A stretch of 64,000 bases of DNA from Siphlonurus alternatus (Eukaryota; Arthropoda; Insecta; Ephemeroptera; Siphlonuridae): NCBI GenBank assembly GCA_949825025.1, contig OX463784.1, forward strand, positions 1,451,168-1,515,167, read 5' to 3'. Position numbers and translations under genes: made by a program. Below are positions 16,867-64,000 of this stretch, piece after piece (the first letter of the stretch is position 1; each line of letters opens with the position of its first letter). The notes beneath the pieces were generated by a model, which saw nothing but the letters and a program-made list of their open reading frames with translations, was not told the DNA's origin and did no database searches.

Positions 16867-19800
16867 TTAGTTTTTATTGGTAGTAAAGTTTATGAGCTTG
16901 CGAGTGGTGGGAAACGAATAGTTCCAGAAGATCTTCACCTGGTCGTTTGCCACCACTGCCTCAACGTCCCCAGGAGCGTATGGTATGACAGGTGAATCGT
17001 CAATACCAAAATGGTGCCTCAGATGGAAATAAAGCTCCCGCAGTGCAGCATTGTGCCTCTCGATGTAAAGAGTACGGGCATAGAAAGGACATGCAGAGAG
17101 AAGATGCATGGTGGTCTCGGGAGAACGGAAGCACGCCCGACATCTGGTGTCCAGCTGACGACCAGAGATCAACTGCTGGTACACCAGGGATGTGAACACA
17201 CCATCCTGCATCTTGATGATATTGCTCTCTGACACGGAAGTCAGCCCAGAGGAGCGAAGAAAGGCAAAAGTACGCTCCCTGCAAAGGCCCTGGCTCTCGA
17301 TGTTCTTGTAGAACACGCTATGCATGCTCTTTGCCATGTGCCCTCGCAATAGAAGACGCACCTCCGCCTCCCTCACCCTCTGCTTGGCGAGAGCCCGAGG
17401 CAAACCTGCAAGGTTTACTCCTGGCCTCGACTCCGGCTCCACCAAATCCAACTGTACTCCCAATGCCCATGCCGCCCTTTTTGCTGCACTGAACAAAAAC
17501 GCTCCACTGCCCCACAACTCATGCCCATACACAAGTTGAAGATGGGGATCTGTGCTCGTTACCACACGACACGCCATACTGATAACCATTCGGTTGTAGG
17601 CTTTCTCAACTCCGAGCAACCCTCTACCTCCCTGATCACGTGGAAGGTAGACCCTCTCAACAGAAGCCCGCTTATGGTGGCTCAAGTTTGAAGACATGAC
17701 TTTCCTCGTGATGGTATCGAGGCCCTTCAGCTCTGCCACGTTCCATTTCATGGCACCAAAGGTGTAGAGCATGACAGGGATGGCTAGCATGTTGGTCGCT
17801 TGGATCTTATTGCGACCCGACAACCTGGAACTCCAGATCTTCTTCAGGCGTCGAACATACTCCCCACGAAGCACCTTCTGGCACAATCCTGTATCCTGAA
17901 CGTGACTTTCACTCACGCCCAGGTACTTGTACCGTGCTTCGGCATCGAGATGTCTAATGATGCTCCCGTCTACCAGCTCCATGTCTTCTCGTTGGCCACA
18001 CACCTTGCCAAGTCGAATGTGCAGGACCGCACACTTGTCCAAGCCCAACTCCATCCCCGTGTCTGCTGCAAAGCTACTAACAAGATCAAGCGACTCCCTG
18101 AGCTTGCGTTTGCTAGAACCATAGATTTTCAGGTCATCCATGAAGAATGCATGGGTGACCTTATGGCTCCGACACGAAGGTGGGCCAGCCATGTACCCAT
18201 CTTGTTCCCGAAGTAAAGCAGAAAGGGGCAACTGGGTGATGCAGTAAAGTTTGGGGCTAAGGGAGTCACCCTGGAACACTCCCCGCTGATATGCCACGAA
18301 CTCTGTGTACGACACTCTACCACCAGCCTTACACTGGAAGCGAGTCCTCCACAGCGGCATGAGGTCCCTAATGCATCTCACCAGATCGGGATGAACATTC
18401 AAGATCTCGAGACACCTCAAGATTAAGCCATGCGATGTCATGTCGAAAGCTTTCCTGAAGTCCACCCAGGCCACAGAGAGGTTCCGCTTATGCTGTATGG
18501 CATCTTGACAGACGCAGCGGTCCAGGAGAAGGTTCTCCTTACACCCCTCGTGGCCCCTCCGAGCCCCCTTCTGCTCGTGCAACTCTACCCAAACTGGCTG
18601 AATAGAGTCCTCCAGTAGCTCATTCAAACAACCAGTAAAACCTTTATACTCGGTGTTGAGCGTGGTGATGGGTCTATAGCTGGATGAAAGTGACAAGTCC
18701 CCCCCTTTGGGGATCAGGATCGTGCGTCCCTCCACCAACCAAGCAGGGATCTCCATCGTGCCCCTTAACATTGCGGTGTAATGCCTTGCCAAGTGAGGAT
18801 GCACAGCCGTAAACTTTTTCCACCAGAACGTTTGGATCTTATCAACGCCTGGCGCTGCCCAATTGCGCTTTCCTCTGAAAGATCGGGCAACAAGTTCTAC
18901 TGTGACATCCGGGCACACTACCTGCCTATCCTGCACTCTCCGACAAAGCTTCTCAAACTCCGAGAGAGCCTGAGACTCGACGTTGAACTCGACACTTTCC
19001 CCATAAATTCCCGCCCAGAATGCACGGATAGCATCCGCCGTAGGAGGGTTGTGTGGAGGCGCTGGTCTCTCCCGCTCCAAAAAGCGGCGCGCATTGTGAA
19101 GAAAGACGTTATTATCCTCCAAGCACTGCAAACGACTCAGCTTCTTTGCTTTTATAGCCTTCAGGGTGCGGATTCGATCCAGAAACTTCTGTTTGGCAAC
19201 AACCAAAACAGAAAAGCGTAAAGTCTTGTAAAGCGTCCGTGTTGAAGCTAAAAGTAGCTTCATCTTCCGGGAAGCTGGTCTCCCTGAACGGACAAACTCC
19301 ACAACACTCTGGATTCGTGACGCACCCCATCTGGCCTCCAGAATCCTCTCCTCCAGATCTGCTATCTGCCCACGGATCTTTTCCTGGGCACTCGGGCCAT
19401 CCTGCATCTTGGGAAGCATGAGCTTCGCGGCGGCAAAGACAGCCACGTTGACTTCCATCAACGTTGACTCCTGGGTGAGGCATGAGAAAAGTGCCTCATT
19501 CATCGCTACCAAGTCTTGTGCTCGGATTTTCCTTCTCGGTCTCCGAAGGAATGGTCGCTTTTCGAAACGCAGACTGGTCTTTTCAATCTCCTCCCTCAGC
19601 TCTGCCTCAAAGTCCCTCCCCTGCAAAACAACAGGTTCAGGCTGTGCCTCATCTTCGGAGGAAGACGACGAACGAAATTCCACCGAGTCTGAGACAGAGG
19701 CTTGCGAGCTAGAAGCAGAAGAAGGCGTCTGCGACCTGGGTAAAATTCCCCGACGCCCCAGCACAGCTCTGGCTTGGTCACTCAACTGCTGTTTCGTGAC

Positions 19801-20031
19801 CCCCATCTCCGGATGGCGCTCCTGCCAAATCATTAAAAGACGGGCCATATATCCCCTGCGCTGAGGCTCACTAGCTTCGTAACAGACAAGCAGTTCATCA
19901 CAAAGCTCCTCCGTCCACCTCAATCGCCCATGTAGAGGCTGGTCCCTTTGTCCCCCACCACTTGGTGCAGCCGACACATCCGAGATGCCGGCATGGTCGG
20001 GGGGCCTTCGCATGTTATGCCTAGGAACCAT
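16867..20031 (-). CDS. R2/R4-like non-LTR retrotransposon ORF (RT), restriction-like endonuclease missing
   Basis: This uninterrupted 1054-codon frame starts at ATG 20031. Residues about 37-94 form a helical, Trp-bearing segment (LRWTEELCDELL…WQERHPE) resembling a Myb/SANT-like DNA-binding region. Residues about 95-150 are Ser-rich. The RT domain lies at about 395-690, with the catalytic box FMDD at 630-633 and VDFRKAFD and GVFQGDSLSP motifs before it. A zinc knuckle (C964-x2-C967-x8-H976-x4-C981) follows, as in R2/R4-type elements. In such elements this knuckle precedes a PD-(D/E)xK restriction-like endonuclease. Here the frame ends about 70 residues later, just after a KIFWNYSFPTTRKL motif, with AT-rich coding and no PD motif. 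The coding region is far more GC-rich than its surroundings. It is intact as an ORF but probably incompetent for autonomous insertion. Confidence 0.85.
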   Translation of the reverse strand: MVPRHNMRRPPDHAGISDVSAAPSGGGQRDQPLHGRLRWTEELCDELLVCYEASEPQRRGYMARLLMIWQERHPEMGVTKQQLSDQARAVLGRRGILPRSQTPSSASSSQASVSDSVEFRSSSSSEDEAQPEPVVLQGRDFEAELREEIEKTSLRFEKRPFLRRPRRKIRAQDLVAMNEALFSCLTQESTLMEVNVAVFAAAKLMLPKMQDGPSAQEKIRGQIADLEERILEARWGASRIQSVVEFVRSGRPASRKMKLLLASTRTLYKTLRFSVLVVAKQKFLDRIRTLKAIKAKKLSRLQCLEDNNVFLHNARRFLERERPAPPHNPPTADAIRAFWAGIYGESVEFNVESQALSEFEKLCRRVQDRQVVCPDVTVELVARSFRGKRNWAAPGVDKIQTFWWKKFTAVHPHLARHYTAMLRGTMEIPAWLVEGRTILIPKGGDLSLSSSYRPITTLNTEYKGFTGCLNELLEDSIQPVWVELHEQKGARRGHEGCKENLLLDRCVCQDAIQHKRNLSVAWVDFRKAFDMTSHGLILRCLEILNVHPDLVRCIRDLMPLWRTRFQCKAGGRVSYTEFVAYQRGVFQGDSLSPKLYCITQLPLSALLREQDGYMAGPPSCRSHKVTHAFFMDDLKIYGSSKRKLRESLDLVSSFAADTGMELGLDKCAVLHIRLGKVCGQREDMELVDGSIIRHLDAEARYKYLGVSESHVQDTGLCQKVLRGEYVRRLKKIWSSRLSGRNKIQATNMLAIPVMLYTFGAMKWNVAELKGLDTITRKVMSSNLSHHKRASVERVYLPRDQGGRGLLGVEKAYNRMVISMACRVVTSTDPHLQLVYGHELWGSGAFLFSAAKRAAWALGVQLDLVEPESRPGVNLAGLPRALAKQRVREAEVRLLLRGHMAKSMHSVFYKNIESQGLCRERTFAFLRSSGLTSVSESNIIKMQDGVFTSLVYQQLISGRQLDTRCRACFRSPETTMHLLSACPFYARTLYIERHNAALRELYFHLRHHFGIDDSPVIPYAPGDVEAVVANDQVKIFWNYSFPTTRKLINFTTNKN

Positions 20032-22484: not shown

Positions 22485-22536
22485 CTGTCAGACACGTTTA
22501 GAATACTTTGATCTGACACGTTAAAAAAAGTTCAAA

Positions 22537-23450
22537 ATGGCCGGCGATGAAGTTGTACATTCGTGTAGTTCATGTTTAGAAGCTACAATTCCTAGTGATA
22601 AGGTCATTACATGTGGTGCTAGTTGTGGCAAATTATTTCACATTCAATGCGCACAAATTACTGATACGGAGTATAAAAATATAACAAAGAGTAGGCATTT
22701 ATTCTACAAATGTGTGAACTGCATCGCGTCACAAGAGACCGCTGTGGGCAGACTCAAGAGAGAGGTAAATGAGTTGAAAAATTGCTGTTACGAACTCATT
22801 CTACTTACTCAGAATCAATCTCAGCATATGGAGGATTTAATTGCATTTAAAAATTTTATATTAGAGAACAATGCAGCCCCTAAACGCTTATTTTCTGATG
22901 CTGTAAATAGAAAACAGCTGTTTATAAAGCCTCCTTCCACCAATTCAGGCGGGAAGAAGGTGAATAGTTTAGAATCCGCGGGAAGAAATTCAAATGATGT
23001 TACCTCTCGTATGCAAACTGAGCAGCCAACTTCACTCGACACTTCAACAGACGCGCCTACTGATACAGAGCGCGAGAAAATCGACGAGCGTCCCGAGCGG
23101 GATGCGAGCGACGAGGAGGATGGCTACAAGAAGGTTCGCGGTCGGAACTTTCGCCGGCACCAGAAGCAAGGCTCAGCCAGCAAAGACAGCGACTGCCCGT
23201 TGGTCGGGGCAGACAAAAAGGCACACTTACATGTGTGGCGCCTTCACTCTAAGACTACAAAAGAAGACGTGAAGAATCATATAGACGGTAAATTAAACTG
23301 TAATATTGAAATTGAAACTTTAAATGCATGAGGGCCGTACGCCTCGTTTAAAATTACTGTAGATTTTAATTTATTAGAAAAAATAATTGATCCTTCTCTA
23401 TGGCCTGTAAACGCATTAATTGATAGATTTAGATTTGCAAAAAAAAAAAT
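22537..23450 (+). pseudogene. LINE ORF1 with PHD-type zinc finger and RRM-like C-terminus
   Basis: The ORF starts at ATG 22537. Residues 10-62 match a C4HC3 PHD finger (C10, C13, C26, C30, H35, C38, C59, C62). A short coiled-coil-like stretch follows (about residues 68-110), then an acidic/basic linker. A segment starting near residue 228 (LHVWRLHSKTTKEDVKNHI) is typical of the RRM-like region of jockey/CR1 ORF1 proteins, which bind element RNA. An in-frame TGA at 23329-23331 interrupts that region. The same frame continues for 36 more codons to an 11-A run at 23439-23449 and then directly into the endonuclease. ORF1p would be an RNA-binding chaperone of the LINE ribonucleoprotein. The TGA makes this copy truncated. 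Confidence 0.8.
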
Positions 23451-23511
23451 CCACCAAAGCCTTTTCCCCAGAGCACATAAGCGTTCTGAGGTAATCACTG
23501 ACACGTGTTCC

Positions 23512-26394
23512 ATTTTTCATCTAAATATTCAGGGCTTAAACAGTAAAACTCTACAATTAGAAAATTTTGTACAACCTTTCAAGTCTTTGAAAATAATATG
23601 TGTTACAGAACATTTTTTGAACAAAGGTGATTATTCTACTTTTAAAATTGGTAAATTTATTATGGCTAGTATATATTGTAGAGAAGTCAAAATACGTGGT
23701 GGCTCGTGCATTTTTATTCATGAATCTTTAGCGTTTAAAGAAAATTTAACAATAAAGAATATGTCTATAGAGAATTGTATTGAAATGTCATGTGTAGATG
23801 TAGATTTCTGTGATACACCTTGTTCTGTCCTTTGTATTTATCATCCTCCAAAGGGAGATTTTAATTTGTTTTTAGAAAAACTTGAATTAGCTATAAAAAA
23901 TATATATTGAGATAAAAGAGAACCTGTTTTGTGTGGAGATTTTAATGTTAATATGCTTTGTAATGATTCAAACGTAAAGGAATTTGAAACACTCTTAAAC
24001 ATATGTAATCTAAAATCAGTAATTATTTCTCCCACGAGATATTGTAAAACAACTATGACTTTAATAGATAATATAATTATCCCTAAGTTGATTCCATTTG
24101 ATCTAAATGAGAGTAAGGTTATACCATGTTATTTTTCAGACCATGAGGCTCAACTTATATCAGTTAGTAATAATAGCACAAAAAATACAAGTAACAATAA
24201 TTATAAACGATTTTTCTCGAGGAAAAATATGAAACAATTTAAAAATTATTTAAAAAATGAGTCCTGGTCAAATGTGTATAATAAATTTGATGTTTAATTC
24301 TTTCCATGGAATTTTTACAAACTATTTTGAATTGTCTTTCCCATTAGTAAAAATTAAAAAAAATGATGATAATAAATATAAAAAAAAGCCTAATATAATG
24401 ATACAAGGATTAAAAATATCAAGACAAAAATTAAGAGATTTAAAAAAAATAAAACAATAAAAACCCACATATATGGAATGATGAATATGTTAAAAAATAT
24501 AAATATATATATAATAAGCTTCTACGTGTTGCAAGTAAAAGGAAAAATACCTTGTTCATTAAAAATTCAGATAATAAGTCCAAAGCAATGTGGGATCTAA
24601 TTAAAAAAAGACATGGAAAAAACAATAATAATAAAAAAATTATTTCAGATATAATTGTTGATGGTAAAACTGAAGACAATCCAAAAAATATTGCACAAAA
24701 TTTTAATAATTATTTTATAAAATCTATTGCTGATTGCAAAAAAAATATTGACATCACAGCTAGTTCATATGCTAATATATATGATGCAATAAAAATAAAT
24801 CAAAATTCAATGTTCTTATCTCCTTTATCAAACTCGCAGCTTTTAAAAATAATTAATAATTTAAAAAATAAACACTCTTATGGTTTTCATAGTGTCTCAA
24901 ATTTTGTACTTAAATCTTGTGCTAATGATGTCAGTGTTGTGCTCACTTTTATAATAAATAAATCATTTGAAGATGGTAAATTTCCATCCATTCTTAAAAA
25001 TGCTATAATTAAGCCAGTTTACAAAAAAGGTGCAAAAAATATGATGGAAAATTTTAGACCAATCAGTTTATTATCTGTTTTTTCTAAGTTATTTGAACAG
25101 GCTTTCTTAATAAAACTTTTGCCATTTTTAGATAAGTACGAGATACTATCAAAATTTCAGCACGGCTTCCGTAAAAATAAATCCACAGAAACTGCAATGT
25201 TCCAATTAATTGATAGCATCATTGATAGTATAGATAAAAAACAAAAATCAGCTGGAGTATTTTTGGATTTGTCAAAAGCTTTCGACATGGTTGATCATAA
25301 TATTTTGTTTAATAAATTGTTTAGATATGGAATAAGAGGTAAATGTTTGGATTGGCTTAAATCTTTTTTAAGTAATAGAACTCAAACTGTTGAAATATCA
25401 TGTAAATTAAATGAAAAACATTATTCAGATAAAACTACCCTTAAATACGGCTTGCCACAGGGTACTTGTACAGCACCAGTATTATTTCTTATTTATATAA
25501 ATGATCTACCTTTAAATTTGAATGATAATAATTGTTTGTTTGTGCAATATGCTGACGACTCTAACTTAAAAGTTACGGGTGAAAATAACGAACAACTTTC
25601 TAAAAATATTGAAAAATCATTAACAAAGGTAAAAGCACATTTTAATTATATTGGTTTACTGCTTAATGTAAATAAAACTGTGATTCTACAATTTCAAAAT
25701 ATTGAAAATAAAAATCAAACAATCCAATCAGTACAATTAGAAACACAAAATATTCCATTACATAATTCAACTAAATTTTTAGGATTAATCATGCATCGAT
25801 TCAAATTTGCGCTGGGTAGATCATATTCAGTATATATGTAAAAAATTAGCATCAGTGATATTTGCTATAAACGAATTACGGTATGAAACCGAATTTGAAT
25901 CTTTGAAAATACTGTATTACGCAAATTTCTATTCATTGCTTAAATATGGAATAATTTGTTGGGGTGATTCTCTCGAGTCTCATCGACTGTTTATCCTACA
26001 AAAAAGGGTAATACGTTTAATGTGTTTTGTTAAAAAAAGGGCAACATGTGTAAAACTATTTAAGGAGCATAGTATATTACCCCTTCCTTGTATCTATATT
26101 TTAGAATGTGTACTTAAAGTTAAAAAAAGTATGTCTTTTTTTAGAGAACATGTTGTAAATCATAAGTATAATACAAGGAATGTGAAGAGTGTAATAACCC
26201 CTATATGGTGCAGACTTAATATGTATAGAAGTGGTCCATTTATGAGTTGTTTACGACTCTTCAATAAGCTCCCAAGTGTTATAAAGTGCATCGAAAGTGA
26301 TAAGTTATTCCACGCAAGTGTCAAGGATATGTTACTAAAAAAATGTTTTTATAGCGTGAAGAGCTACATGGACTATAACTTTGAATTAACATAA
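23512..26394 (+). pseudogene. LINE ORF2: APE endonuclease and reverse transcriptase, broken
   Basis: Endonuclease motifs appear in order: HLNIQGLNSK near 23518, a CVTEH motif, an IYHPPKGD motif, CGDFNVNM at about 23932, TLIDNI, and SDHEAQ near 24139. RT is at 24552-25841 with LDLSKAFD (residues 238-245 of that segment), GLPQGT (300-305) and YADD (333-336). A post-RT region (KYGIICWGDS, then RLFILQKRVIRLMCF) runs to 26394. Breaks seen: an in-frame TGA at 23908-23910, a frameshift near 24290, a further frame change near 24460-24540, and a frameshift near 25795-25806. Normal ORF2 of this clade would be about 900 residues in one frame. Confidence 0.88.
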
Positions 26395-46036: not shown

Positions 46037-47614
46037 TCAACTTGATAAAGAAAGCAACCAATTTTTAACATATTTTTTAACTAAACTTCTTGACTCTAAA
46101 CATTTTAAATTTAAAGGCATATCATTCCATAACCTTGGTACCATATAATCCCACGTTTTTTCACAAAACCTATTTAACCTTTTTGGTGCAATTAAAGGAT
46201 CATTTGTAATTAGTCTCGTTTCATAATTATGTACACGTAATTCTCCATGGTTCAAATCAAAATATTTGACATTTATTAATGAATGTTTTGCTTGAAGATT
46301 AACTGGTAATACATTCCAATATTTATAAACATTATCCCCAGTTTCAAATTTATCACCAAATTTCATACATTTCAGCAACCTTTTTTGCATTTTAATTAAT
46401 TTTGTCATTGAACTGGATTCAGAAAATCCCCAACCCAATATCCCATAAATTAAAAAAGGATGTGCTAATGCAAAATATACTTTCCGCAATGTTTTTTCAT
46501 TAACAATGGATTTTAATTTGTACATTTGAGCCATCACAGATCTTAATTTATTAATAATTTTGTTGATTTGTGGATGCCATTCAAAATTTTCATCAATTAT
46601 TATCCCTAAATAAGTATGTACTTTAACTTGTTCAATTTCCTCACATGTGCAATTATCCATAAATTTGTGTATACAATCATTTGTATGAATTTTTATTTTA
46701 ATACACTCATTTTTTCTCAAGTATTTATTACATATATGCATTACTTTAGTTTTCTTTGTATTAATGATTAGACCATAGTCATGTGCCCAATAAGCTAATT
46801 GATTTGCATTTATTTGTAAATTCTTATGAGCTTCCAAAAAATCTTTGTTAGACACAAGTATAAGTAAGTCATCAGCAAACATAAATATTTTACAATTTTT
46901 TAATACAGAAAAAATACTATTAACATAAACATTAAATAATATTGCTGAAATTGTACCTCCTTGAGGTGTCCCCCACTTAATTTCCCATTCATCTCCTTTT
47001 ATATTATTTATTTCAACCACCATTTTTCTATTTTTTAAGTAATCTTTAATTAATTCAAGTGTGGGACCTCTTATTCCAACTTTTTTCAGCTCATCAAAAA
47101 GAATATCTTGATTTAGCGTATCAAATGCTTTCGAAAAATCTACAAATAAGGCCAGTACATGATTATTATCCATTAATTCATTATAAATAAATTCAGACAT
47201 ATCTCCAATTAATTCATTTGTAGATCTACCCTTTTGATAGGCATACTGATTTTTGTTAATTATTTTATATTCTTCAAGATAATCAATTAAATTTGTAGTT
47301 ATATATTTTTGAGGTAACTTATCAACTGTTGGAGACAACATAATAGGTCTATAATTATTACAATTTTTATGATCTCCTCCTTTATAAATTGGTCTACAAA
47401 TTGATTTTTTAAGATTTAATGGGAATCTCTTTTCTTCAATGCATAAATTAATAAACTTGGTTAAACTTAAATACAATTCATCACCCCCCATTTTTATATG
47501 CTTTATAGTTATTTTATCATGTCCAGGAGCTTTATTTACTTTACATTTTTCAATTAAATTTATTGTTTTTTCATTAGTTATTTTAGGTAAATAAATTGAC
47601 TGAGCTGCATTCAC
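46037..47614 (-). CDS. LINE reverse transcriptase (N-terminally truncated ORF2)
   Basis: The 525-codon frame is uninterrupted and stays open upstream of the first Met to the insertion edge at 47644, so the true start and the endonuclease are lost by 5' truncation. RT motifs: KAPGHDKIT (29-36), NYRPIMLSP (87-95), VDFSKAFD (158-165), GTPQGG (215-220) and FADD (246-249). A post-RT region with HTYLGIIIDENFEW, PFLIYGILGWG and MQKRLLKCMKF follows. It then has the C-terminal domain with HNYETR and PRLWNDMP motifs typical of jockey/CR1-group elements. The intact catalytic FADD and open frame point to a recent insertion of a different family from the LINE at 22.5 kb. It has no endonuclease and is unlikely to move by itself. 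Confidence 0.9.
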   Translation of the reverse strand: MNAAQSIYLPKITNEKTINLIEKCKVNKAPGHDKITIKHIKMGGDELYLSLTKFINLCIEEKRFPLNLKKSICRPIYKGGDHKNCNNYRPIMLSPTVDKLPQKYITTNLIDYLEEYKIINKNQYAYQKGRSTNELIGDMSEFIYNELMDNNHVLALFVDFSKAFDTLNQDILFDELKKVGIRGPTLELIKDYLKNRKMVVEINNIKGDEWEIKWGTPQGGTISAILFNVYVNSIFSVLKNCKIFMFADDLLILVSNKDFLEAHKNLQINANQLAYWAHDYGLIINTKKTKVMHICNKYLRKNECIKIKIHTNDCIHKFMDNCTCEEIEQVKVHTYLGIIIDENFEWHPQINKIINKLRSVMAQMYKLKSIVNEKTLRKVYFALAHPFLIYGILGWGFSESSSMTKLIKMQKRLLKCMKFGDKFETGDNVYKYWNVLPVNLQAKHSLINVKYFDLNHGELRVHNYETRLITNDPLIAPKRLNRFCEKTWDYMVPRLWNDMPLNLKCLESRSLVKKYVKNWLLSLSS

Positions 47615-48403
47615 ATTATTAACAATAGAAAATTTAATATCACATGAAAATTCACATTCGTCAAGTCCTTTACATTCTTCTGTTCAATTCATCCTGAGAA
47701 AAATTTTGGTTTAAGGTGGAACTATATGTGGTTACTAATGTATCTACAAAAAATATCAACTGAATGCTCACATGTTAAATATTTTTGAATTAGAGCTCTA
47801 TAGATAACAAAGGTATTTGTCAATTTCAATTTTGCATTTTTTCACGATAAATAATTTAAAAGGGTCATTTGACCCTCAAGGATTAAAGGGTCGCAAATTT
47901 AAGGGTCATGATTAGATCCGACATCAATTATACGAAACATAAAAATAGGATTTAAAATGGAACCTACCTGTGGTTACAAAAGTAGCTAGAAATAAATTTA
48001 ATTGCAACCTCCGTCAAATTTTAATTACACTTAAAAAATAAAATGCGGCTTGGATTTCAAGTCAATATTTTTGCACCTCGAAATTATGCAAACATTGTAA
48101 CGTCTATATGAAAATTCACATTCCTTAAGTCCTTTCCATTCTTCTGTTCAATTTATCCTCTGAGAAAAAATTTTGGTTTAAGGTGGAATTATATGTGGTT
48201 ACTAATGTATCCAGAAATAATGTCAACTGAATGCTCACATGTTATATATATTTTGCATAGATTAAAAAAAAATTGAATGGATGACAACATTGCACAGATG
48301 AATTAATTACGGTCAATTATAGTAGTCTAAGACACTAAGGATATCCATATTATACCTCATTAAATAATGAAGGTTGGGATTAGAACATACTAGTGGTTAC
48401 ATA

Positions 48404-59600: not shown

Positions 59601-60880
59601 TCAAGTGAATATTTTTGCACCTCGATATTATGCAGACATTGTAACGTCTATATGAAAATTCACATTCGTCAAGTCCTTTACATTCTTCTGTTCAATTCAT
59701 CCTGAGAAAAATTTTGGTTTAAGGTGGAACTATATGTGGTTACTAATGTATCTACAAAAAATATCAACTGAATGCTCACATGTTAAATATTTTTGAATTA
59801 GAGCTCTATAGATAACAAAGGTATTTGCCAATTTCAATTTTGCATTTTTTCACGATAAATAATTTAAAAGGGTCATTTGACCCTCAAGGATTAAAGGGTC
59901 GCAAATTTAAGGGTCATGATTAGATCCGACATCAATTATACCAAACATAAAAATAGGATTTAAAATTGAACCTACCAGTGGTTACAAAAGTAGCTAGAAA
60001 TAAATTTTATTGCAACCTCCGTCAAATTTTAATTACACTTAAAACAATTAAAAAATGCGGCTTAAATTTCAAGTCAATATTTTTGCACCTCGAAATTATG
60101 CAAACATTGTAACGTCTATCTGAAAATTCACATTCCTCAAGTCCTTTACATTCTTCTGTTCAATTCATCCTAAGAAAAATTTTGGTTTAAGGTGGAACTA
60201 TATGTGGTTACTAATGTATCTACAAAAAATATCAACTGAATGCTCACATGTTAAATATTTTTGAATTAGAGCTCTATAGATAACAAAGGTATTTGCCAAT
60301 TTACATTTTGCATTTTTTCACGATAAATAATTTAAAAGGGTCATTTGACCCTCAAGGATTAAAGGGTCGCAAATTTAAGGGTCATGATTAGATCCGACAT
60401 CAATTATACCAAACATAAAAATAGGATTTAAAATGGAACCTACCTGTGGTTACAAAAGTAGCTAGAAATAAATTTTATTGCAACCTCCGTCAAATTTTAA
60501 TTACACTTAAAAAATAAAATGCGGCTTGGATTTCAAGTCAATATTTTTGCACCTCGAAATTATGCAAACATTGTAACGTCTATATGAAAATTCACATTCC
60601 TTAAGTCCTTTCCATTCTTCTGTTCAATTTATCCTCTGAGAAAAAATTTTGGTTTAAGGTGGAATTATATGTGGTTACTAATGTATCCAGAAATAATATC
60701 AACTGAATGCTCACATGTTATATATATTTTGCATAGATTAAAAAAAAATTGAATGGATGACATCATTGCACAGATGAATTAATTACGGTCAATTAAAGTA
60801 GTCTAAGACACCAAGGATATCCATATTATACCTCATTAAATAATGAAGGTTGGGATTAGAACATACTAGTGGTTACATAA

Positions 60881-61325
60881 AGGTGTACTGAAGGGAACAC
60901 TTTTTTAATATCATCTTATCAACAAAAATAAGACTGATTCACTGGTAATAACCATTTTATTGTTGAGGCCCCCAAATTTGAATTTCAGGGACCAACGGCT
61001 AAAAAGTGAAGTTGTGACGTATCGGTCTGGCCACACGCGATGCCCAGTAGAAATTTTATGGCGAGATGAGAGCAGAAGCGGCGATACCGGATGTTGGATG
61101 TAGGTGGGATGTAGAGGTAGGTGGCAGCACCGGACCACGTTGTTTAAACTTCAAACGAGCTCCGTATTTTTTTCGTTTTTTGAAGTGTTAAAAACTAAAT
61201 TAGTGATAAAAAATTGTTGTAATGTGATTATAAGTGTATGTACTAAAGAGTGTTTTATAAATATAGAGTGATCGTCACTTAATTTCAGCAAAAAGTGTAC
61301 TTATCTCTTTCACTCTTGTGCTACC
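60881..61325 (+). promoter_or_regulatory. 5' UTR / promoter region of the terminal LINE
   Basis: The satellite stops within GGTTACATAA at 60880 and a GC-mixed leader of about 445 bp begins at AGGTGTACTGAAGGG. It contains a TGACGT-type motif near 61015 and a GGATGTTGGATGTAGGTGGGATGTAG-like G-rich stretch (degenerate ~10-bp units) around 61090-61130. There is no TATA box close to the likely start. LINEs of the jockey group use internal TATA-less promoters in this position. Placement of the 5' end at the satellite edge is inferred. Confidence 0.5.
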
Positions 61326-63308
61326 ATGATGTCTGATCCCAGTTCTCGTGGTTCAGTAGCAGGTGTGTCTAGTGTTTTCATGCCAACTATGGCACATTGG
61401 TTGCCTACCAATAACACCCCGTATAATTACTGGGTCCAGCAAGAAGGAGCTCCAAATTTTGAAAGTAAGACTGTTATTGAAAAACTAAATATAATAGAAA
61501 AAGGTGTGGCAAAATTAACTGTCCTATATGAAAATTTGTACTATAATATGATAATGCAAAATGATAAGACAAGAAATAATGTGAATCAGCCATGTTGTAA
61601 TTATGACAATAGTATTAATATGCCAGTACGGCAAGTACAAAATAGTGTAGTGGATTTAAAAGGGTCACGTGCTCGGCCAATGTCATATTCTGCGGCGGCA
61701 CGCACGAGAGCAGCAGACAACTCCCGAGCAGAAGGTGTGTGGCTCGCTGCATCGAGGAGCGTAAATAGCTCTGCTGCTCGAGGTCGCACGGTGATGAACT
61801 CTCGCTCGAGGTCAGAAGGCGTGTGGCGCGCTGCACCGAGAGCAACACAAACTGACAGAGAGGGGGCGGAATGCGATTGGCGCACCGTTCCAAGTAATCA
61901 CCGCGGATCGAGAAAATCCATCCATATAAATGACCAAATCAACTTTGATCACACTAATCGTTTTAATAATCTTATCACTGACAATGCTAATATTTCTACA
62001 TTCAATCAAGATGACGTCACGTTTTCTCCAAACATTACAGAAATAAGAGGTAACCTCTTCTCTGCACCACCTGGATACGCTCTCGCGCATTGTGTTGGAG
62101 CAGACTTCTCTTGCAAAAGAGGAATAGCACCGGAAGTTGTAAAAAAAATTGACAACATCGACAACATGAAAGCACAGCTTCGCAGGCCTGGACAAGTAGC
62201 CGTAGATAAAAGAAATTCTGCAGAACGGCCTGTAATTTTTCATCTGGTGACTAAAGAGCTGTCTACGGACGTCCCAACACATGAAAAAATAATTGAAAGT
62301 CTGTGTGAACTGCGTAATGTCTGCCACTTATTAGGCATTACAAAACTAGCCATGCCTAGAATCGCATGTGGAAAAGACAGACAGAAATGGCGGAACATCA
62401 GTATTGAAATTGAATCAATATTTGCAAATTCAAATATACAAGTATTGATTTTTTATGCAACACGGGCTGATATAAAAAAATTCAAGGCTGAGAGCAAATT
62501 AAAGCAGGTGATAAATCGCAACGACATCCCTGCGGTGGAAACCTCTATGCCCAGCAATACAGGGGAACCCAAAATTATCACGGAGGTTACCGCTCCCATC
62601 GAACCTGCCGTGCAAATACACAACACGGAGGCGACTGCTGCGGTAAGGAATGACTCTCCTGTTGCGGCGATGGTGACACCTCACGTGGAGCTGTGCAGAG
62701 AGGTGGCGGAGGCGGCGAGCACCTCTGAGGTGCAGCAGCAAAGCTCAGCAGAAAACAGGCGGGCTGACACTGATCTTCCTCATGGTGTGGAGGAGCGCGA
62801 GGAGGAGAGGAGCAGGCGGGCCGCCACCATCCTCTCCTTGCAGTCTACACGGACAGGCCAAGGGTCCCTCATGACCCAGGGGTCACCTGAAGGTGACGCA
62901 GGTGTACATTCGGACACCCCGGCATCTGGTGAGCATTCTCCAACCCCCAGTGCTCCCTCACAAAGTCCGTCTCAAGTCATGCAAAATTTTTTTACTCCCA
63001 GTGCACCCATTTATTCCCAATTTACAGAAAATCCTGAAAAGTCAGACTCATTTTCAGAGGAACAAGAAAAAGAGTATGAGAGGTACAATAGTGCTGTTAA
63101 AGCTGGTGATTTAAATACCTCAGGGCTTGATGAATTTAATAAATTTTGCGCAGATACTCTTGGAGAAGATAATTTATACGAGCAAAATGAGAATTTTAAT
63201 ATACAAAAAAACTCAAATACTATTAGTCAAAGGCAACTTCGACCTAGAATTTCAGCACAAAACCATAATTATTTTCTACAAACAAAAGTACAGGTAAAAA
63301 AATCTTAA
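61326..63308 (+). CDS. LINE ORF1 protein carrying a TARG1/OARD1-type macrodomain
   Basis: The uninterrupted 660-codon frame starts at ATG 61326 (ATGATG). Residues about 48-78 look like a short coiled coil. Residues about 115-195 are Arg/Ala-rich, with three imperfect repeats centred on Trp (EGVWLAASR, EGVWRAAPR, ECDWRTVPS). Residues about 236-380 form a macrodomain. It has the ADP-ribose-binding entry EIRGNLFSAPPGYALAHCVGA, an LVTK motif, an AMPRIACGKDRQKW motif and a final IQVLIFYA strand. K310 and D351 are 41 residues apart, the spacing of the catalytic Lys/Asp pair in TARG1, which removes ADP-ribose from glutamate. The C-terminal 280 residues are Ser/Pro/Glu-rich and disordered-looking. 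The endonuclease frame follows immediately. The usual PHD, CCHC or RRM-like ORF1 domains were not seen. Confidence 0.85.
   Translation: MMSDPSSRGSVAGVSSVFMPTMAHWLPTNNTPYNYWVQQEGAPNFESKTVIEKLNIIEKGVAKLTVLYENLYYNMIMQNDKTRNNVNQPCCNYDNSINMPVRQVQNSVVDLKGSRARPMSYSAAARTRAADNSRAEGVWLAASRSVNSSAARGRTVMNSRSRSEGVWRAAPRATQTDREGAECDWRTVPSNHRGSRKSIHINDQINFDHTNRFNNLITDNANISTFNQDDVTFSPNITEIRGNLFSAPPGYALAHCVGADFSCKRGIAPEVVKKIDNIDNMKAQLRRPGQVAVDKRNSAERPVIFHLVTKELSTDVPTHEKIIESLCELRNVCHLLGITKLAMPRIACGKDRQKWRNISIEIESIFANSNIQVLIFYATRADIKKFKAESKLKQVINRNDIPAVETSMPSNTGEPKIITEVTAPIEPAVQIHNTEATAAVRNDSPVAAMVTPHVELCREVAEAASTSEVQQQSSAENRRADTDLPHGVEEREEERSRRAATILSLQSTRTGQGSLMTQGSPEGDAGVHSDTPASGEHSPTPSAPSQSPSQVMQNFFTPSAPIYSQFTENPEKSDSFSEEQEKEYERYNSAVKAGDLNTSGLDEFNKFCADTLGEDNLYEQNENFNIQKNSNTISQRQLRPRISAQNHNYFLQTKVQVKKS
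63294..63308 (+). promoter_or_regulatory. Candidate -1 ribosomal frameshift site at the ORF1/ORF2 junction
   Basis: ORF1 ends GTA AAA AAA TCT TAA. The seven As at 63296-63302 fall as A-AAA-AAA in the zero frame, the canonical X-XXY-YYZ slippery heptamer. The stop lies one codon after it. A -1 slip enters ATC TTA AAA TGT ACT, the open frame of the endonuclease. In that frame no ATG lies between the preceding stop (63266-63268) and the first endonuclease motif, which argues for frameshifting or reinitiation rather than a separate start. A downstream stimulatory fold was not assessed. Confidence 0.6.
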
Positions 63309-64000
63309 AATGTACTAATAAATGTATTTCAATTTTACAACTAAACATTCCAGGTTTTAAAGCAAAATTAACTTTATTTGAGTCTCTTCTTGAATTAGAA
63401 AATATTGATATAGCCATTATTTGTGAACATGGCCTTAAAAAGGAAGAGATTAGCACTATTAAATTTAAGAATTATAGATTAAGTACGTTTTTCTGTAGGT
63501 TATCGCAAGTTAAAGGTGGAGTGGCAATTTTTTCTAAAAATTTGTTAAATGTTGATAAAATTGATATTGTGTCTGCTGAATCATATTTTGAGTGCTGTCT
63601 TGCCAAGGTCAAATTAAACAAGTCGCAAAATATTTTTCTTGCATCAATCTATAGGTCACCAACGTGTAAAAAAGGAATATGTCAGAGTGAAATGATGGAT
63701 AAATTTTTTGAATGTTTTGAGACTATGTGTGTAAAAATAAATAATTTGTGTAGACATAATGATAAAATTGTATTGGGTGGAGATATTAACATTAATATTT
63801 TAAAGAAAAATAATACTGTAGATTTTTATACTGACATGTTGCAATCTTTTGGTTTACACATAGTAAACCAGCAACCAACTAGAGTATCCAAACACACTTC
63901 AACTCTTATTGATCATTTAATAATGAAAAACTCTGACTTAAACACAACGTGTGTCAGTAAAGACACAATACTGTCAGATCATAAATATACACTTTTAAAG
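63302..64000 (+). CDS. LINE ORF2, APE-type endonuclease (cut by the window edge)
   Basis: Reading the frame entered by a -1 shift, APE endonuclease motifs appear in order. They are LQLNIPGFKAK near 63335, an IICEHGL motif near 63418, a GGVAIFSKN motif, an ASIYRSPT motif near 63646, LGGDININIL near 63775, a STLIDHLIM motif near 63900 and SDHKYT at about 63974. These are the metal- and DNA-binding residues of AP-like endonucleases that nick target DNA for target-primed reverse transcription. The frame is uninterrupted for about 230 codons to the end of the window. RT should follow outside. Together with intact ORF1 this suggests a young, possibly active element. Confidence 0.88.
   Translation, partial: MLKCTNKCISILQLNIPGFKAKLTLFESLLELENIDIAIICEHGLKKEEISTIKFKNYRLSTFFCRLSQVKGGVAIFSKNLLNVDKIDIVSAESYFECCLAKVKLNKSQNIFLASIYRSPTCKKGICQSEMMDKFFECFETMCVKINNLCRHNDKIVLGGDININILKKNNTVDFYTDMLQSFGLHIVNQQPTRVSKHTSTLIDHLIMKNSDLNTTCVSKDTILSDHKYTLLK

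Follow-up and report, generated by a model that had tools for sequence, protein, structure and literature searches.

A TARG1-type macrodomain in ORF1 of a LINE-type element probably inserted into satellite DNA of Siphlonurus alternatus

The window, that is, the whole 64-kb stretch of Siphlonurus alternatus DNA analysed here, ends inside a LINE-type element that lies beside a satellite array. The features of the element are listed below.

60880..60881, no strand: satellite/LINE boundary, probable 5' junction of the insertion, at the end of an array of ~468-bp satellite units
60881..61325, plus strand: presumed 5' UTR of about 445 nt, placed between the satellite junction and the first ATG of ORF1
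61326..63308, plus strand: ORF1, an open reading frame of 660 aa without interruption
61458..61574, plus strand: predicted long helix, aa 45-83, likely a coiled coil (AlphaFold2 and heptad scan)
61575..62030, plus strand: basic Arg-rich linker, aa 84-235, predicted to be disordered, candidate RNA-binding part (pI and pLDDT)
62031..62465, plus strand: TARG1/OARD1-type macrodomain, aa 236-380 (sequence match and fold)
62253..62255, plus strand: codon of K310, counterpart of the TARG1 nucleophile K84 (alignment to TARG1)
62376..62378, plus strand: codon of D351, counterpart of TARG1 D125 (alignment to TARG1)
63057..63233, plus strand: predicted C-terminal helical segment, aa 578-636, without family match (AlphaFold2)
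63269..64000, plus strand: start of ORF2, an APE-type endonuclease (Exo_endo_phos_2), truncated by the window edge
63296..63302, plus strand: A_AAA_AAA heptamer in the ORF1 frame, one codon ahead of the ORF1 stop

Judged from the sequence, the layout is that of a LINE inserted into satellite DNA, with a leader of ~445 nt followed by ORF1 and the start of ORF2; the window ends upstream of any reverse transcriptase. Likeness of the satellite to the rest of the window halts at 60880 (blastn, E to 1e-4), where 19 of 80 blastn alignments terminate exactly and beyond which none of the 80 extends. Past the junction, at 60954-60987, repeat finding marks 34 nt that resemble the satellite at 71%, and for this reason 60880 is a probable rather than a proved end of the satellite. 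The array spans 30955-60880, is made of units of about 427-468 bp, and is broken up by other elements. A reverse-transcriptase ORF of 548 aa resides between satellite blocks at 46037-47683 on the minus strand (RVT_1, E 4.8e-32). A second LINE is found at 22525-26394 on the plus strand (RVT_1, E 3.1e-32); its ORF1 features a sub-threshold PHD match (E 6.4e-4), and its endonuclease region is marked by an in-frame stop. The unbroken ORF of 1054 aa at 16867-20031, on the minus strand, has RVT_1 (E 1.1e-20) as sole Pfam match up to E 0.001, and it may be a retroelement with a single ORF, R2-like or related. The macrodomain element is present in one copy within the window, and Rfam families were found nowhere in it.

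ORF1 overlaps by 40 nt, in a different frame of the same strand, an ORF which matches the Pfam family Exo_endo_phos_2 (E 8.8e-7, 29.2 bits, cut-off 27.4). The overlap supports placing the macrodomain in an ORF1 of LINE type, as proposed in an earlier note on this DNA. The endonuclease is 29% identical to that encoded at 23497-24159 by the second LINE (E 2.7e-13, search restricted to the window), and a sequence search of solved structures gave no convincing match to it. Picked out by eye in ORF2 are LNIPG, CEHGL, SIYRSP, GGDINI and SDH, which we take to be catalytic-type endonuclease motifs. The ORF2 frame is without an early ATG. The heptamer at 63296-63302 hints weakly at a possible -1 frameshift into the endonuclease frame; counting this one, 8 slippery-type heptamers occur in frame within the AT-rich ORF1, and the RNA 3' of A_AAA_AAA has no folding advantage over shuffled sequences (z 0.77), with no stimulatory fold seen.

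Residues 236-380 of ORF1 match TARG1 with an E of 3.8e-26, and in a structure comparison of the domain model the predicted fold is a macrodomain, nearest to TARG1; sequence and fold thus bear out the subtype that had been read from motif order. A misread satellite or a chance ORF as source of ORF1 was dropped, in view of the 660 codons and of the TARG1 match. K310 and D351, pointed out in the earlier note as the catalytic Lys and Asp, align with TARG1 K84 and D125. Passages of one paper name Asp125 as the TARG1 residue (PMC5087735), a review prints position 125 as Glu125 in the section concerned (PMC7050489), and the TARG1 chain used in the comparison carries Asp. The ADP-ribose-binding glycines of TARG1, G43 and G123, correspond to G266 and G349 in ORF1; G43E and G123E are handled as ADP-ribose-binding-deficient in parts of PMC5928194. 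The first ADP-ribose loop differs from that of human TARG1, as G41-A42 are replaced by K264-R265 in the window copy, changing GAG to KRG. Since both substitutions fall in this loop, activity of the window copy cannot be presumed. The altered loop, residues 31-40 of the domain model, is its least confident stretch (block-mean pLDDT 68). The macrodomain has a pI of 9.2. The NCBIfam model of DarG scores 26.4 bits against the domain and does not reach its cut-off of 250.

The catalytic pair is kept in relatives. In a set of 130 proteins, window copy included, Lys occupies the K84 position in all, and Asp the D125 position in each of the 129 reaching that column. Gly is found at the G43 position in 129/130, the exception being Arg in Ephemera P0003, and at the G123 position in 128/129, with Phe in P0097. 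Membership of the set depended on similarity to the domain, which biases these counts upward. Lys at the G41 position is peculiar to the window copy among the 130 proteins.

Outside the macrodomain, ORF1 was modelled by AlphaFold2 from alignment A3, which holds 12 sequences (mean pLDDT 52.3, pTM 0.36). The helix at aa 45-83 has block-mean pLDDT values of 84-86 at aa 51-70 and lower ones at its ends, and a home-made heptad scan of ORF1 peaks at aa 48. Residues 79-232 are below pLDDT 50, and the linker has a pI of 10.0 at aa 86-235. The macrodomain carries a following helix in the full model, and the C-terminal helices fall from a block-mean pLDDT of 88 at 581-590 to 45 at 631-640. No second confident globular fold was seen in the model. 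Pfam searches of full ORF1 returned 0 families up to E 1, with RRM, CCHC, PHD, Tnp22 and esterase domains all unmatched. The macrodomain itself was overlooked in these searches, so that strongly diverged versions of RRM, CCHC, PHD or esterase domains are conceivable. The TARG1-type macrodomain is the sole recognised globular domain of ORF1, and the plan of the protein, as modelled, looks like a coiled coil followed by an Arg-rich linker and the macrodomain.

A protein search with whole ORF1 (7995 candidates scored) identified six relatives: P0002, Ephemera danica P0003, Neocloeon triangulifer P0004 and three metagenomic proteins. Three more came from a search, over 126 candidates, that used the domain within the full-length protein. 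Similar long proteins are found in two mayflies and in seven metagenomic sequences; the Ephemera and Neocloeon proteins are annotated merely as hypothetical or uncharacterized. P0002, from another source, is 37% identical over 67% of ORF1 and 57% identical in the macrodomain. ORF1 residues 1-235 match P0002 residues 1-215 (E 3.4e-7, equalled by 0/200 shuffles), and no likeness was detected between the C-terminal tails of the two proteins, 59/200 shuffles being equally good. As N-terminus and macrodomain are common to ORF1 and P0002, the fusion occurs beyond this locus as well. The N-terminus of P0010, the sole JGI protein tried, had no detectable match to that of ORF1 in a comparison made without shuffle control. 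From likeness of layout and from number, the mayfly and metagenomic proteins would be LINE ORF1s as well.

Pooled identity among the metagenomic proteins P0005-P0011 (21 pairs, P0008 and P0011 being incomplete) is 0.908 in the macrodomain, 0.730 before it and 0.746 after it. In this one family, comparison of the protein sequences shows the macrodomain to be under amino-acid constraint relative to its flanks, as measured by protein-level identity and not by dN/dS. The faster change of the flanks need not imply special selection on the macrodomain, because the flanks are probably disordered.

A profile search restricted to short proteins yielded 299 matches. Among the 120 listed, many are fly and bird proteins annotated as OARD1; the rest include unnamed proteins and at least one fragment of the metagenomic family, P0011. 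Viral contigs scanned with ORF1, P0006 and P0002 contained no relative; 22 loci were found in a scan with profile A2. Prokaryote genomes gave 81 relatives, 80 of which were kept, bacterial or archaeal by their record titles. In two proteins, P0017 (metagenome, 256 aa; Pfam OSK E 1.1e-7, above cut-off) and P0097 (Frankliniella fusca, 245 aa; OSK E 0.003, below cut-off), a TARG1-type macrodomain is followed by an OSK/SGNH-hydrolase-like domain. As the other enzyme known from LINE ORF1 is an SGNH esterase, both proteins merit a look for a mobile origin. P0124 (250 aa) and P0014 (246 aa) have TARG1-type macrodomains behind N-terminal stretches which feature SWASVV and NRYTCL, and which we take to resemble retroelement ORF1 or gag linkers.

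The first tree was built from 76 of the 130 proteins; the 54 others (fly and bird OARD1 rows, P0006, P0009) were excluded as near-duplicates by a hand-made list, without clustering. The window copy pairs with P0002 (100/98), Neocloeon groups with metagenomic sequences (8 rows, 96/99), and both the window pair and this mayfly/JGI group fall outside the set holding dipteran host OARD1 (99/91). For the second tree, 7 more long or odd rows were removed, Ephemera P0003 included, leaving 69. Here the grouping of the window pair with the mayfly/JGI group was not rejected (p-AU 0.443), nor was that with the same group plus P0014 (p-AU 0.307) or that with the OSK-type group (p-AU 0.29). As none of the three alternatives was rejected, the test has little power. 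In this tree Neocloeon fell in no starred set, and the join of P0014 to the window pair is flagged as a long-branch one. On these alignments the domain may have been acquired by either one old capture or several, and the trees single out no source for it.

Human TARG1 (OARD1, C6orf130; an ALC1-like macrodomain hydrolase) is a single-domain cellular enzyme, whereas here it makes up one domain of a retrotransposon ORF1. The nearest parallel in plan is the type IV, or esterase, ORF1 of CR1/L2 elements such as ZfL2-1, which, in the sections bearing on it, has a coiled coil, an Arg-rich motif and a hydrolase replacing RRM and zinc knuckles (PMC3905857, PMC4120745), without a structural RNA-binding domain (PMC3905857). 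The hydrolase is an SGNH esterase in type IV and an ADP-ribose macrodomain in the window ORF1. Within types I-IV defined for the Jockey superfamily in the portion of PMC4120745 that treats them, no fit was detected for the element, and its ORF1 would be placed in type V, unclassified. Insect R1/TRAS LINEs (PMC4686597, PMC5563155) also took up a foreign enzyme domain; theirs is a viral helicase in ORF2, in contrast to the cell-type macrodomain in ORF1 of the window LINE. The DarG antitoxin macrodomain is 20% identical to the window domain and keeps the Lys without the TARG1 acidic partner, as stated in a passage of PMC7050489, whereas the window copy keeps both residues.

Macrodomains borne by parasitic genetic elements are also known from viruses (alphavirus nsP3, coronavirus Mac1, Kadipiro virus VP8); the carrier of the window domain is a retrotransposon. 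Alphavirus chains are 10-14% identical to the window domain and rank under TARG1 and DarG in the structure comparison; alphavirus and coronavirus macrodomains presumably belong to another class. Among viral structures, Kadipiro virus VP8 in BFVD matches best (TM 0.91, 33% identity). A TARG1-like macrodomain is found also in Armadillidium vulgare iridescent virus, where the identity of 36% covers 112 columns only of the structural alignment. The two viruses suggest that the TARG1 subtype has been captured repeatedly by arthropod parasites.

In a full-text search of open-licence literature, no LINE with a macrodomain ORF1 was seen in the titles or abstract openings of the matches listed; an earlier record, for instance in Repbase, is possible. 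The terms 'macro' and 'ADP-ribos' are absent from the main text of a survey of ORF1 in 448 elements (PMC4120745). A LINE ORF1 with this enzyme would be new, within a known kind of element.

We lean, by a small degree, towards the reading that the RNP of this LINE carries an ADP-ribosyl hydrolase or reader that acts, at the target nick, on marks made by PARP. ORF1p would multimerise via the coiled coil and the Arg-rich linker would hold the element RNA, and a putative ADP-ribosyl hydrolase or ADP-ribose binder would thereby be placed inside the RNP. At the target site, PARP1/2-type enzymes would be activated by the nick that the APE endonuclease makes and by the ends of the cDNA. The macrodomain might then remove or hold Glu/Asp-linked ADP-ribose on proteins, and perhaps phospho-linked ADP-ribose on nucleic-acid ends; with the marks cleared or used, target-primed reverse transcription and repair could proceed. 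According to passages of the papers cited, TARG1 acts on Glu/Asp ADP-ribose of proteins and on ADP-ribosylated nucleic-acid ends (PMC7050489, PMC11833690), and RNA and PAR compete for binding to it (PMC5928194). The relevant part of a review reports that PARP1 and PARP2 gather and act where human LINE-1 integrates, and that retrotransposition drops by roughly half when either is lost (PMC8535693). The nick role is favoured because the chemistry of TARG1 meets there with the presence of PARP1 and PARP2. Given the loss data, PARP cannot be viewed simply as a factor against LINEs; by analogy they also speak against the nick role, as human LINE-1 uses PARP instead of undoing it, in the account given by the same part of the review (PMC8535693). 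The altered first loop of the window copy and the relatives that have lost a binding glycine (P0003, P0097) weigh against it too.

The domain, its subtype, the residue pair and the LINE-ORF1 setting of the earlier note held. The counter-defence role attached to them is inference only and sits uneasily with passages of PMC10221186 and PMC8535693. In that reading, the macrodomain would strip, as viral macrodomains do, the ADP-ribose put on element RNA, cDNA or ORF proteins by host PARPs or other ADP-ribosyltransferases. The retained K310/D351 pair is in line with it, as are the TARG1-like folds of the two arthropod-associated viruses and the reversal by TARG1 of phospho-end ADP-ribosylation of RNA and DNA, reported in part of PMC11833690. 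Most vertebrate PARPs, however, are said in a section of PMC10221186 to be absent from insects, and human LINE-1 activity drops on PARP loss (PMC8535693, in the part concerned). Counter-defence is possible and the main rival, weaker than the nick role, and on balance we judge it unlikely. The other serious rival, to which we give a similarly low probability, is a pure binder, in which the macrodomain would contact nucleic acid or poly-ADP-ribose in place of RRM or CCHC, hydrolysis being unimportant. The basic pI, the charge added by K264-R265, and an ORF1 in which RRM, CCHC, PHD and esterase were all unmatched suit such a module, and TARG1 binds ssRNA not, or not solely, via the ADP-ribose pocket, as described in a portion of PMC5928194. 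Yet the Lys/Asp pair and the second-loop glycine, needless for a pure RNA binder, are kept in both the window copy and P0002.

Two further readings would deprive the domain of a role in the element. It could be a passenger, a captured copy of host OARD1 drifting without function; the changed first loop would suit drift, and so would decay of the neighbouring LINE in the window, which has stops in its ORF2 region. An ORF1 open across 660 codons speaks against it, as do the macrodomain being the best conserved part and the sharing of N-terminus and macrodomain with P0002 at an overall identity of 37%, and we hold it very improbable. The lowest probability goes to a host macrodomain gene adjoining a LINE endonuclease fragment by chance. 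The window ending ahead of any reverse transcriptase would permit this, and so would the uninformative annotation of the two mayfly relatives. Such a gene is hard to reconcile with the 40-nt overlap of ORF1 and endonuclease ORF on one strand, with an intronless ORF1 beside a satellite array, starting about 445 nt past a sharp junction, and with seven divergent metagenomic relatives resembling copies of a repeated family.

Whether the nick reading extends to a set of animal LINEs, which would have built their ORF1 around a captured de-ADP-ribosylating enzyme, is a proposal to which we give slightly less than an even chance; an 'eraser' type would then join the types with RRM, PHD or esterase. 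If so, 'eraser' LINEs would modify PARP signalling at the insertion nick, ADP-ribosylation would be a direct contact point between retrotransposon and host, and the related layouts in two mayflies and in the metagenomic family would be further members. Macrodomain capture, so far linked with viruses in the papers cited, would extend to a retrotransposon. No part of LINEs is less well understood than the ORF1 protein, and an ORF1 enzyme with known chemistry and inactivating mutations would make it directly testable whether ADP-ribosylation at the insertion site promotes or impedes retrotransposition.
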